A stretch of 64,000 nt of DNA, taken from positions 496,001 to 560,000 of the forward strand of contig NZ_CP065383.1 in assembly GCF_015775515.1 (NCBI RefSeq), given 5' to 3'. Of the stretch, positions 49,574 through 54,747 are shown in pieces (within the stretch, counting starts at the first letter, position 1; every line of letters starts with the position of its first letter). Position numbers and translations under genes: made by a program. The notes below the pieces were generated by a model. That model was not told the origin of the DNA and searched no databases. It saw only the letters and a list, made by a program, of their open reading frames with translations. Origin of the DNA: Atribacter laminatus. GTDB taxonomy: Bacteria; Atribacterota; Atribacteria; Atribacterales; Atribacteraceae.

Positions 49574-50434
49574 AGTAGCATCTCTCCTTTTTTGTGTTTA
49601 TTCTATCTTATAAACCCATTGTGGGTTTGATAAATCAATGCTTGGATTAAACATTTTTTTCTTTTTATTTCATAAAAACTTTAAAAAATGAGATTGCCAC
49701 GTCGCTGCGCTCCTCGCAATGACGGGCCGGGTGGATGAGATTGCCACGTCGCTGCGCTCCTCGCAATGACGGAGCGGGTGGATGAGATTGCCACGTCGCT
49801 GCGCTCCTCGCAATCAGGCTGTGTCACAATCCCTTTCACACACCAAGAAGAGCTTGAAATTGGAGGATACATTCTATTTATCTTCATTTTTTTGGTTATC
49901 TATTCCCAATATTCCTGTAAAATATTAACATAAGTGGTGGTAAAAATTTTACAGAATAATTATGACACAGTCTGAATGACAGAACAGTAAAAAACTCAAA
50001 TCCCCCTAACCCCCTTTTCTAAAGGGGGGAATTGATCGGTATATACATATTTTCATTTTAATCTGGTACTGCAAGGCAGCATAAGGGGTCTATTCTGTAA
50101 ACCCACGGGCATTATGAATCAAGCTCCTACAAAATATTATTAAATGAAGGGTGCAATTTTTTATTGCGCCCGATCTCCATCTAATGTAGCGACAAGCCAT
50201 GGCATGTCGAACTCTTGGGCTTTCACCCTCATCCTCACCTTCTCCCATCAAAGGAGAAGGTACTATGAATTCTTTTGTTCTTTTTTCCCTCGCCCCTTCG
50301 CGGGAGAGGATCAGGGTGAGGGGGATACCATTTTTCATCCTCATCTGGTGTAATAGAGACATGAATACCTAATTTTAATGATTACAACAAAGCTAAATAA
50401 TTGAATTTAGACTAAAAAGACTGCATCTTATTAA
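49574..50434. repeat. Repeat mosaic with 47-bp tandem array and a MITE
   Basis: Three family-2 units repeat with a 47-bp period (starts near 49688, 49735, 49782), the last split by the MITE at 49815-49974. Further on are a GGGGG inverted repeat near 50000-50030, a family-3 unit at about 50049-50100 (CTGC/GCAG), a palindrome copy with one mismatch at 50190-50209, and C-rich tracts. No gene is supported. Confidence 0.75.
49815..49974. mobile_element. MITE, 160 bp, copy A
   Basis: Terminal inverted repeats are CAGGCTGTGTCACAAT and CAGACTGTGTCATAAT (two mismatches), flanked by AAT on both sides (49812-49814, 49975-49977). No coding capacity. Near copies lie at 51915-52059 and 54121-54280, in opposite orientation to this one, all inserted after the same bases (CTCGCAAT) of a family-2 repeat. 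Confidence 0.85.
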
Positions 50435-51655
50435 TTAACCATTTTTTTCAGAATTCATTCCCGATAAGACCATTTCAGCGAATTTTCTCCCGAATTCTTT
50501 TCCTTGAGCAAGAACCTCTTGAGAAGGACCACCTTGAAATACCAAAGTATCGGCCATCTGCCATTTTAACAGAGCCAGTTGTTTTTCTAATTCCCGAAGA
50601 GCTCCTCCCGCCCAACCATAACTTCCAAAATAGGCTACCTTTTTATGCTGAACTCCTTTTCTTATAGCAATATCAAGAACATGAGCCATCGAAGGAAAGA
50701 GCTCATTCTCATAAGTTGGAGCCCCAATGATAACTCCGCTTTTTGACCAGAGTGAGGCAAGTATATAACTGGTATGAATGCGAGAAACATCAAATATTTC
50801 AAGGCTGGAACCGGTCTGAGATATTCCCTGGGCAACAGAATCCATTAAAGCTTCGGTGTTCCCATACATGGTTGCATAGAGAAGGGTTATTCCCGGCTCT
50901 CCGGGTATTTTTGCATATTCCGCCCATTTTTTATAAAGATCGATAATGATCGATGGATTTTTTCTCCAAATTAAACCATGAGAAGGAGCTATAATATCTA
51001 CCGGTATTCCAGATAATTTTTCAATCGCTTTTAAAACCTGAGCGCTAAATTTTGCGACAATATTGGCATAATACCGTAATGCTTGTTTCTGATAAAATTC
51101 TAAATCAGTGCATTCATCATCAAATATGGCACCCCGAAGTGCTCCATAACTGCCAAATGCGTCGCATGAGAACAGTATTCGGTTTATCTTTTCAAAGGTC
51201 ATCATGGTTTCTGGCCAATGAACAAACGGCGTCATAAAAAATTGGAGTGTTAGTTCTCCCAGTTGCACCTCTTCCCCATCTTGGACAACCTGTACCTGAT
51301 CAGTAATTCCATAAAAAGCTTGAATCATGTCCTTGGCTTTTGGAGAACAGAGAATTTTAGCTTGGGGTGCAATTTTTCGGAGAACTCTTAAGACTCCTGT
51401 GTGATCAGGCTCCATATGGTTGAGAATGATATAGTCAACTTGAGAAGGATTGACAATTTCTGCTATTCGTTTAAAAAATTCATCTACTTTAATTGATTTG
51501 GCTAAATCGATTATGGCTTTCTTTTGATCATTGACCAGGTATGAGTTATAAGAAACTCCTTCCTGAGTAATCGGCCATAAACCCTCAAAAAGGTCGGTGG
51601 TGTGGTCATTGACACCGATCCAATGTATCTTGTTTCGTATCTCGACAGCCGGCAT
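50435..51655 (-). CDS. fprA: Flavodiiron protein (A-type flavoprotein)
   Basis: The 406-aa protein has an N-terminal metallo-beta-lactamase-like diiron domain with NHMEPDHTG (His80, Glu82, Asp84, His85), PFVHWPETM, LFSCDAFGS and APSHGLIWR. A flavodoxin domain follows with LLYATMYGNTEALM (FMN phosphate loop) and GSYGWAGGA. Such proteins reduce O2 to water or NO to N2O in anaerobes. Electron donors are usually rubredoxin or F420H2; none is encoded nearby. RBS was not decisive; ATG 51655. Confidence 0.95.
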   Translation of the reverse strand: MPAVEIRNKIHWIGVNDHTTDLFEGLWPITQEGVSYNSYLVNDQKKAIIDLAKSIKVDEFFKRIAEIVNPSQVDYIILNHMEPDHTGVLRVLRKIAPQAKILCSPKAKDMIQAFYGITDQVQVVQDGEEVQLGELTLQFFMTPFVHWPETMMTFEKINRILFSCDAFGSYGALRGAIFDDECTDLEFYQKQALRYYANIVAKFSAQVLKAIEKLSGIPVDIIAPSHGLIWRKNPSIIIDLYKKWAEYAKIPGEPGITLLYATMYGNTEALMDSVAQGISQTGSSLEIFDVSRIHTSYILASLWSKSGVIIGAPTYENELFPSMAHVLDIAIRKGVQHKKVAYFGSYGWAGGALRELEKQLALLKWQMADTLVFQGGPSQEVLAQGKEFGRKFAEMVLSGMNSEKNG

Positions 51656-52121
51656 AGGCTCCCATCCTCCTTCCCAATATGGAAATAAAAATTCAATCTC
51701 TATTATACCTGAATTTATTTGTTTGATGGTGATATCAAGGGAGAAGGAATTTTAGTTATTCGCTATCCTGAACCCTCGATTTTCGAGGTCGTGAGGATCT
51801 CATCCTATTATTGGTAATTTAAATATTTTAACATATGAGATTGCCACGTCACTTCGTTCCTCGCAATGACGGAGGGGGTGGATGAGATTGCCACGTCACT
51901 TCGTTCCTCGCAATCAAGATGTGTCATACAAATTACTCTGTAAATTATTTACATCCATTTATGGTAATATTGGGAATAGATAACCAATATATGAAAAAAT
52001 ACTATATCCTCCACTTTCACGCTATTCTTGGTGAAAGAAAGGAATTGTGACACAGCCTGAATGAGGGTTTTATATAGGGTTTTCATCCTCGTCGGTGCTC
52101 CAAAAGTGGCACGAGGGTTAA
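51656..52121. repeat. Repeat mosaic around MITE copy B
   Basis: A family-1 hairpin lies at about 51763-51804 (CCTCG/CGAGG), two family-2 units at about 51836-51910 (47-bp period), the second split by the MITE. A family-3 unit is at about 52079-52118 (GTGCTCC/TGGCAC). No gene. Confidence 0.7.
51915..52059. mobile_element. MITE, 145 bp, copy B
   Basis: Starts CAAGATGTGTCATA and ends with the complement of CAGGCTGTGTCACAAT. AAT flanks both sides. Somewhat shortened and diverged from copies A and C but same interior order. Confidence 0.8.
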
Positions 52122-53447
52122 TTAACCTGCTTTTTCCTCCATCATTTTAAGGAAGTTTTTGACCACCTCTGGATCAAACTGTTTCCCTGATTGGTTTTGC
52201 AATTCAATCAAAGCTTCTTGAGGTGCCAATGAGCTTTTATAGGGTCGAGGTTGAATCATCAAATCATAGGTATTTACCACAGAAGAAATCCTCGAAATCA
52301 GTGGAATATCTTCATGAGAGAGTCCACGTGGGTATCCTGATCCATTCCACCATTCACAATAGCTTAAGGCAGCATCTGCTATTTGATTGGTAAAAGGAAA
52401 ATATTGAAGAACGCGGTAACTAATTTCTGGAATTTTCCTAAGGGTTAATTTCTCTGTTATAGTTAACGGTTCTTTTTTTAAAAGCAGATGACGGTGAATA
52501 GTGATTTTCCCAATATCGTGAAGAGCGGCTAATAACAGAAGATTATTTAAGGCTTGTTGATCAAGTTGAAGAATTTCACCCAATTGATGATGATAAAGAA
52601 GATTTTGCGTGTTCCCTTCTTTCTGAAAAAGCTTTTTGACTTCCCAATATTTAAATTTTAATGAAGCAAACAGTTGATCCCTGATTAACTGACTTTCGAC
52701 TGTCTTTTTGTGATACATTTCGTCTTCAGCTTGTTTTAAAACTTCTTTGATTTGATCTCCAGGATGACTTTTAGTACCAATTCCAAGAGAAATGGTAATT
52801 GGTATCGTGTCGGTTTTTCTTTTTTGACAAAGTTCTGAGATCCGTTGGATAATAGCTTGGGCTGTTACTCCTGAGGTTTTTGGTAAAAGAATGATGAATT
52901 CATCCCCTCCCCAACGGGCTATGATATCTTCTTTTCGGCAAGAATCCCTGAGAATTGTTGCTACATCAACTAAAAGTTCATCACCACAGTCGTGACCGTA
53001 GATATCATTCACCAACTTCAATCCGTTGACATCACCCATAATTAAACTTATCGGTAGTTGGCGCTCAGTATCGAGTCTTTTTATTTCCTCTTCAAAAAGA
53101 ACCCGATTCCATAGTCCAGTGAGGGGATCGTGTAAAATCATATCACTGGAAAAATACTTCTGACTTTTTATCGTAAAATCTTGAAAAGATTCTTCATCTT
53201 CATAAAAATAAAACTTTACTTGATTATCCATTGGTTGAATCCTATTGTCTTCATTCTCTTCTATGAATATTTCGTCTTTTTCATCCTGATTAAAAGGAGC
53301 TTTCTGGTTATTTACTTTGATTTGATCTTTTGGTTGGAAAGAATTCGAGTTAAAATTATTTTGGTTGAATGAGTTGAAAAGTTCGTTTCTGTAATTTTTT
53401 TGGTTTATGGTAGGATTTAAACCCCTTTTAAGGGCTTTTCTTTTCAA
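52122..53447 (-). CDS. GGDEF diguanylate cyclase with a C-terminal HD-GYP-like domain
   Basis: The 441-aa protein has a Asn/Gln/Lys-rich N-terminus (about 1-75), a linker, and a GGDEF domain (about 100-255) with RWGGDEF at 178-184 (active site intact) and RKED at 171-174, a probable c-di-GMP inhibitory site. An HD-GYP-type domain follows (about 285-440) with AALHDIGK (His310, Asp311) and GSGYP. The usual HHE before xxxGxGYP reads YCE (363-365), so two metal-binding His are missing and phosphodiesterase activity is doubtful. No membrane segment. Start is TTG 53447 behind GGGGAAAG. Confidence 0.9.
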   Translation of the reverse strand: MKRKALKRGLNPTINQKNYRNELFNSFNQNNFNSNSFQPKDQIKVNNQKAPFNQDEKDEIFIEENEDNRIQPMDNQVKFYFYEDEESFQDFTIKSQKYFSSDMILHDPLTGLWNRVLFEEEIKRLDTERQLPISLIMGDVNGLKLVNDIYGHDCGDELLVDVATILRDSCRKEDIIARWGGDEFIILLPKTSGVTAQAIIQRISELCQKRKTDTIPITISLGIGTKSHPGDQIKEVLKQAEDEMYHKKTVESQLIRDQLFASLKFKYWEVKKLFQKEGNTQNLLYHHQLGEILQLDQQALNNLLLLAALHDIGKITIHRHLLLKKEPLTITEKLTLRKIPEISYRVLQYFPFTNQIADAALSYCEWWNGSGYPRGLSHEDIPLISRISSVVNTYDLMIQPRPYKSSLAPQEALIELQNQSGKQFDPEVVKNFLKMMEEKAG

Positions 53448-53597
53448 TTCAATCTTTCCCCTCGTTCCGGTAAAACTTCTGTTTTAAAAACCAATGATTT
53501 TCTTTTAAATCGCTTTTTCCCCTCTTTTAAAAATGAAAAAAAATGATGATTATATAATAATATTTTATTCAGATTTTTTGCTTTATGAAGGTTTTTT

Positions 53598-53672
53598 TGG
53601 TGGCGCAACCGGGAATTGAACCCGGGCTTGCGGATTGAGAGCCCGCCGAACTAACCACTATTCTATTGCGCC
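53598..53672 (-). tRNA. tRNA-Glu (CTC)
   Basis: The cloverleaf reads GGCGCAA/TTGCGCC acceptor, GAA/TTC D stem, GCGGG CTCTCAA TCCGC anticodon arm (anticodon CTC), CCGGG TTCAATT CCCGG T arm, discriminator A, and encoded CCA. Four bases separate it from tRNA-Gln upstream. Confidence 0.93.
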
Positions 53673-53676
53673 ACGT

Positions 53677-53750
53677 TGGCTGAGAGGGGTGGATTCGAAC
53701 CACCATTCCATGATCCAGAGTCACGTGTCCTACCCTTAGACGACCTCTCA
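53677..53750 (-). tRNA. tRNA-Gln (CTG)
   Basis: Acceptor TGAGAGG pairs with CCTCTCA, discriminator G, encoded CCA. Anticodon arm CGTGA CTCTGGA TCATG (anticodon CTG). T arm GGTGG TTCGAAT CCACC. U1 and G73 match the usual glutamine tRNA identity features. Confidence 0.93.
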
Positions 53751-54747
53751 GCGATCAAGCAGAAAATATAATACCATCACTATTCAGTATTTTCAATAAT
53801 TTATTGGCTTCTCCAAACTTTGATAAATTCAATTTTTACAAAATGAGGTCTATCCAGAAAATACCGTGAACCGTGAAGTGTGAACCGTGAACAGTTTAAA
53901 AATCCACCCTCATCCTCACCTTCTCCCATCAAGGGAGAAGGAATCATAGCGATGAGTCATCCTGAGCCCTCGCTTTTTGAGGGCGTGAGGATCTCATCTT
54001 TTTAATTTTTTATTTTTTTTATAAATACTTTAAAAGATGAGATTGCCACGTCGCCTAGGACGCTCCTCGCAATGACGGGCCGGGTTGATGAGATTGCCAC
54101 GTCGCTGCGCTCCTCGCAATCAGGCTGTGTCATAATTATTCTGTAAAATTTTTACCACCACTTAGGTTAATATTTTACAGGAATATTGGGAATAGATAAC
54201 CAAAAAACTGAAGATAAATATAATGTATCCTCTACTTTTAAGCTCTTCTTGGTGTATGAAGGGGATTGTGACACAGCCTGAATGACAGAGCAGGAGGAAA
54301 TAATTCAAATCCCCCTCACCCCCTTTGCTAAAGGGGGAAACGATTCCTGGGTTAGTATTTTCATCATCAATTGGTACCACAATGTGGCATGAGGGTCTAT
54401 CCTGAAAATACCAGAACGTTTTTTAAGGTAATTCTTTTAGAGCAACTCACCAGGATTTCACTCTGTCCTGGGCTTTCACCCTCATCCCCACTTTCTCCCC
54501 TCCAGGGAGAAGGAACTCTAAATCGTCATTGCGAGGAACGAAGTGACGTGGCAATCTCTCATGCTCAATCTTTATTATTTTCTCTCTTTATATAAAGGGA
54601 AATTAAGAGGGATTCAATTAGTTACTAAAAAACTCAAATCCCCCTCACCCCCTTTGCTAAAGGGGGAAACGATTCCTGGGTAAGTATTTTCATCATCAAC
54701 TGGTGCCACAATGTGGCATGACGGTCTATCCTGAAAATGGTTCCTTC
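53751..54747. repeat. 1 kb repeat mosaic with MITE copy C
   Basis: Heptads GTGAACC, GTGAAGT, GTGAACC, GTGAACA at about 53868-53895; a family-1 hairpin at 53956-53998 (GCCCTC/GAGGGC); family-2 units at about 54040-54120, the last split by the MITE at 54121-54280; GGGGG inverted repeats near 54310-54345 and 54640-54672; family-3 units at about 54354-54410 and 54687-54740 (GCCACA/TGTGGC); a family-2 unit near 54527-54560. The second family-3 unit ends at the gltX stop. No gene. Confidence 0.75.
54121..54280. mobile_element. MITE, 160 bp, copy C
   Basis: Ends CAGGCTGTGTCATAAT and CAGGCTGTGTCACAAT, AAT flanks at 54118-54120 and 54281-54283. Same interior as copy A in reverse orientation. Confidence 0.85.

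Follow-up and report, generated by a model that had tools for sequence, protein, structure and literature searches.

The 160-bp MITE described here is very probably a non-autonomous DNA transposon whose mobility is supplied in trans by a DDE transposase of the IS1182 family, encoded on the same chromosome; almost all of its insertions lie at one base of a REP-like repeat unit. Three copies lie in the window, a 64,000-bp stretch of the Atribacter laminatus chromosome, which is represented by one contig of 3,101,225 bp; the whole chromosome was searched for MITE copies, and the evidence throughout comes from sequence comparison. A sequence-only reading of the window had placed the three copies, and all of them are exactly where it put them; the common insertion base and the AAT duplications that it described were seen at all three junctions.

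Target unit and insertions in the window

The unit has the form CCGTC^ATT-GCGAGG…GGCAATCTC, where ^ marks the insertion base, and the chromosome contains about 300 units. The pattern CCTCGCAATGAC, searched with at most one mismatch, gave 300 genome matches, and the reversed pattern that served as control gave 5. One end of the unit is an unpaired tag, CCGTC at most insertion sites and TGTC or CCTC at others; the tag stretch alone, without the full unit, is CCGTCATTGCG. By sequence the stem is ATTGC...GCAAT, with a complementary A and T at its first two positions. Folding of four unit variants gave this stem for two of them and a different one for the rest, with results no better than for shuffled sequences. 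CGTC-tagged REPs carry a CGTC (or TGTC/CCTC) tag, a stem of 8-9 bp, and a loop of 4-5 (Di Nocera 2013, PMC3733652). The present unit resembles them in having CCGTC followed by an AT-starting stem, in its high copy number, and in its intergenic location, and differs in a stem that is interrupted and variable in length. By sequence, its tag, its AT-starting stem, and its copy number place it in this superfamily; the lengths of stem and loop do so less clearly.

Copies A, B, and C each interrupt a unit GAGATTGCCACGTCGCTGCGCTCCTCGCAATGACG after CTCGCAAT, and the AATGA on the far side represents the AAT duplication. Copy A (49815..49974, plus strand) is 160 bp long, has terminal repeats CAGGCTGTGTCACAAT and ATTATGACACAGTCTG, and is bordered by AAT at 49812..49814 and 49975..49977. 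It cuts the unit at 49784..49814 (plus strand), the hairpin part of which is whole and the tag side of which resumes at 49975; intact units, also on the plus strand, lie at 49690..49724 (GAGATTGCCACGTCGCTGCGCTCCTCGCAATGACG) and 49737..49771. Copy B (51915..52059, minus strand; 145 bp) is flanked by AAT at 51912..51914 and 52060..52062. It cuts the unit at 51884..51914 and stands beside an intact one at 51837..51871, both on the plus strand. Copy C (54121..54280, minus strand; 160 bp) is flanked by AAT at 54118..54120 and 54281..54283. It cuts the unit at 54090..54120, next to an intact unit with a longer loop at 54039..54077 (both plus strand), and a further intact unit on the opposite strand offers a free site downstream, at 54524..54558. 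The opposite orientation of copies A and C, already remarked in the sequence-only reading, is borne out by an inverted repeat (I1) in which they are 93% complementary across 168 bp; copy B is oriented as copy C. Copy B has diverged, with about 75% identity to copy A across its own length and a left terminal repeat decayed to CAAGATGTGTCATA, and it looks older than copies A and C. It is also found at the orthologous place in the sister species G003 and thus predates that split. A second short repeat (AAATCCCCCTAACCCCC...AAAGGGGG) often follows the REP unit, giving composite intergenic repeat blocks; in the window it occurs at 49988-50031, 54297-54340, and 54626-54669, among other places.

The MITE family across the chromosome

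The chromosome contains 24 MITE copies with a median pairwise identity of 92.5%. The family is 145-160 bp long and non-coding, and has terminal inverted repeats and AAT/ATT duplications, as expected of a MITE. The canonical junction is present in 21 of the 24 copies, most of them with a 3-bp ATT/AAT duplication; among the 21 is the second copy at L003, which lacks its right end. Relative to the unit, 11 canonical copies point one way and 10 the other. The three off-canonical copies are at CCGTC-AAT-GACG (L019), in the loop of a unit at GCAC-AAT-GCGC (L021), and at GC-ATT-GTTG with no unit (L023). When MITE and IS insertions are pooled, a C-A(A/T)T-G core is found at all 27 two-sided sites. Folding of the MITE on both strands gave no structured RNA better than shuffles, and an Rfam search around it returned two nearby tRNAs and nothing else.

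At six loci, here and in relatives (L002, L086, L091, L103, L094, and L107), the duplications differ at the central base alone, with ATT on one side and AAT on the other, and at L107 the two flanks mirror each other over eight bases. These mismatches and the mirrored flank look like the result of template switching or gene conversion across inverted repeats.

Targeting and an empty site

If there were no real targeting, insertions would be random and those in genes would be lost, leaving the ones in intergenic DNA, in which REP units abound. Nearly all listed insertions are indeed outside genes, and 51 of 201 non-coding CAWTG sites (25%) fall within units, a background rate taken from a 400-kb sample of the genome in which coding sequence was masked by a crude ORF rule (at least 100 codons). 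Yet 25 of the 28 insertions (MITE plus IS) are inside units (binomial P = 1.8e-12), and their position is fixed to one base. That P value rejects pure intergenic survival bias, which we regard as scarcely credible.

At locus A the sister species G005 has an uninterrupted unit, CTCGCAATGACGGAGCAGTAAAAAAC, where the present genome has CTCGCAAT[MITE]AATGACAGAACAGTAAAAAAC; aligned, the two read ...GCTCCTCGCAATGACGGAGCAGTAAAAAAC in G005 and ...GCTCCTCGCAAT[MITE]AATGACAGAACAGTAAAAAAC here. The uninterrupted unit shows an insertion rather than co-movement or segmental duplication. The MITE and its host repeat might otherwise be taken for one compound element, with REP flanks as its outer ends and both parts moving together, since in nearly all copies an identical 8-base stretch stands at one junction and AATGA at the opposite one. 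About 300 units without a MITE speak against this, as do the differing flanks past the unit and a unit loop whose sequence varies among MITE-bearing copies; the orthologous intact unit refutes it at locus A, and overall it is extremely improbable.

The copies might also have multiplied as parts of a larger repeat block, through segmental duplication or recombination. This could explain why short repeats, AAATCCCCC...GGGGG among them, are met again beside several copies, why the whole of locus C, units and MITE together, is missing from G003 and G005, and why L017 and L019 have MITE variants and the left flank in common. Past the unit, however, copies A, B, and C have only other short repeats in common, in blocks no longer than about 120 bp and about 75% identical, and the family shows both orientations, duplications in most copies, and unrelated genome positions; the full-length IS described below has this same junction at four unrelated loci. 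With flank blocks this short and an empty unit in G005, the block-duplication account was rejected, and we consider it very improbable.

Insertion at a targeted site, the explanation that the sequence-only reading had favoured over a compound unit, thus stands on differing flanks, 11 versus 10 orientations among the 21 canonical copies, the G005 empty site, and four of four IS copies. The checks proposed there came out the same way: flank identity over hundreds of bases was absent, both orientations were present, and insertions away from the canonical site were few (3 of 28, one of them in a unit loop, and all at C-AAT/ATT-G).

A full-length IS1182-family element

The sequence-only reading had also called for a search for a full element with the same ends, and one is present. 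It was found by tracing lone terminal-repeat matches in the chromosome and is 1751 bp long, with a single gene, for a 490-aa transposase, between terminal inverted repeats CAGACTGTGTCACA and CAGGCTGTGTCACA. Four copies (C1:59401-61151, 1183538-1185288, 1444426-1446176, and 1498688-1500438) are 98-100% identical, start with CAGACTGTGTCACAATT, and finish with CAGGCTGTGTCACA. All four are at CCGTC-ATT|ATT-GCGAGG or its reverse, at unrelated loci and with ATT/AAT duplications. The transposase matches the NCBIfam model NF033551 (IS1182) with E = 2.4e-114 and 382.9 bits, the cut-off being 270, and has Pfam matches to DDE_Tnp_1_6 and DUF772. In a decayed fifth relative at C1:155575 (77%), the left end lies at CCCTGCAAT. 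A scan for transposase relatives in viral contigs gave none.

The MITE and the IS have 14-19 bp of their ends in common (CAGRCTGTGTCAYAATT) and the same insertion site. That the MITE arose from the present IS by internal deletion is unsupported, as the match is confined to the ends; rather, the MITE took its ends from this IS or from a relative of it. For the same reason a different mover, now lost, is conceivable, and most MITE copies could have been moved by it.

Under the preferred mechanism, the IS1182 transposase would mobilise the 160-bp MITE in trans through the common CAGRCTGTGTCAYAATT ends. We infer that its cleavage site is a short sequence with C-AWT-G at the centre, reaching over the tag (YGTC-ATT-G). 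Insertion would fall between the CGTC tag and the foot of the hairpin and duplicate the first three stem bases, so that the hairpin stays whole on one side. Reading of this sequence, together with loss of genic insertions, would give the unit-bound pattern with the hairpin itself unread.

Sequence or structure, and relatives in other bacteria

The transposase might instead read the REP hairpin (cruciform) as a structure and not the tag, as has been proposed for IS1272. IS1272, an IS1182-family element of staphylococci, has been reported to take the place of stem-loops that have no sequence in common, with no target site duplication (PMC5678879). The present IS belongs to the same transposase family by curated model, and the family has palindrome-targeting members. 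Structure reading would accord with the stem-loop targets known for the family (PMC5678879), with the off-site copy L019 in CGTC-AAT-GACG, and with most of the IS's relatives below 60% identity, which sit in palindromes. Among those at 49-58% identity, none is at the REP tag: L156, L161, L164, L165, and L167 are in the loops of strong palindromes (p < 0.001), L147, L159, L160, and L166 are in weaker ones (p 0.008-0.034), and L157, L158, and L163 are in neither kind.

In contrast to the stem-loop replacement of IS1272, in which the target is lost and no duplication is made, the present IS enters at the hairpin foot of a single repeat family, not in a loop, with the REP sequence kept and a constant 3-bp AAT duplication. 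Nor do the surroundings of canonical sites show the palindromic target of some (not all) IS1182 members, since they are not palindromic beyond C-AWT-G (p = 0.34), though the hairpin adjoins. Of the GTCATTG occurrences in the 400-kb sample, 58 fall in units, 3 elsewhere in non-coding sequence, and 35 in coding sequence; because outside genes this motif is almost confined to units, a short tag plus loss of genic insertions suffices without hairpin recognition. Finally, MITE copies in two relatives, L087 (in G002) and L084 (in G001), have GTC-ATT before a different repeat family (ATTCTG...), sites that likewise point to the tag as what the transposase may read. Recognition of the hairpin as a structure is accordingly unlikely.

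Transposases 60-64% identical to the present one occur in Aminicenantes (L072/L144), Aerophobetes (L076/L148), and another bacterium (L073/L145). Their elements L144, L145, and L148 sit at the ATT of GTCATTGCGA-type units with the same tag; for L144 the right flank alone is clean, and many relatives' flanks come from fragmented assemblies. Relatives at about 60% thus keep the REP-tag aim, and slightly more distant ones use palindrome loops or other sites. We infer that the lineage would derive from IS1182 elements inserting in palindrome loops. A transposase tree had an unresolved backbone and did not recover the REP-targeting transposases as one clade, so it lends no support to a single origin of REP-tag use. 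Three distant IS1182 relatives from the phylum of the present genome (L113, L114, and L115; 34-35% identity) have GGGGACG[T/G], on one strand or the other, next to them and may represent a further repeat-specific lineage.

Comparison with known systems

REP-targeting ISs have been described as ISPsy8 (IS3), ISPa11/ISPpu9/ISPpu10/ISRm19 (IS110), ISRm22 (IS4), IS621, and IS1397 (PMC1525189). In these, as here, all or nearly all copies are at one REP position, and ISPsy8 likewise makes a 3-bp duplication. They belong to other transposase families, however, and neither a MITE nor IS1182 is mentioned in that report; ISPsy8 and ISRm22 insert at symmetry axes, whereas the present IS inserts between the tag and the hairpin foot. 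In Coxiella a MITE, a REP, and a site-specific IS are also nested (QMITE2/IS1111, PMC5896051), but there QMITE2 contains the GTAG REP that the IS targets, whereas here MITE and IS both target a CGTC-type REP. For CGTC-tagged REPs, no dedicated transposase was known to their describers, and Atribacterota, Aminicenantes, and Aerophobetes are absent from the phyla reported to carry them (PMC3733652). That transposons target REPs is already known for IS3, IS110, and IS4; a partial search of the literature found no description of CGTC REPs as the target of an IS1182 element or of a MITE.

REP-targeting transposons have been known mainly from Proteobacteria and with other transposase families. The graded relatives described above form a natural series for studying how a transposase shifts from DNA shape to short sequence, and the system bears on REPs as gene-sparing landing sites. 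More speculatively, and to our minds a long shot, an IS1182 lineage would have specialised across several phyla on the CGTC-REP tag, starting from palindrome-loop insertion and depending on the tag for non-genic landing, and perhaps also spreading or rearranging CGTC REPs.

MITE copies in sister species

Three species of the same genus (G002, G003, and G005) have further MITE copies at the same junction. In G005, at 98% completeness, the MITE is present in at least 13 copies and nothing matches the IS1182 transposase, so these copies may have been left stranded. Five matches in G003 (L092, L096, L100, L104, and L108) cover only the first 89 MITE bases, with the same identity and end point, which suggests a subfamily of the MITE whose right half is different.
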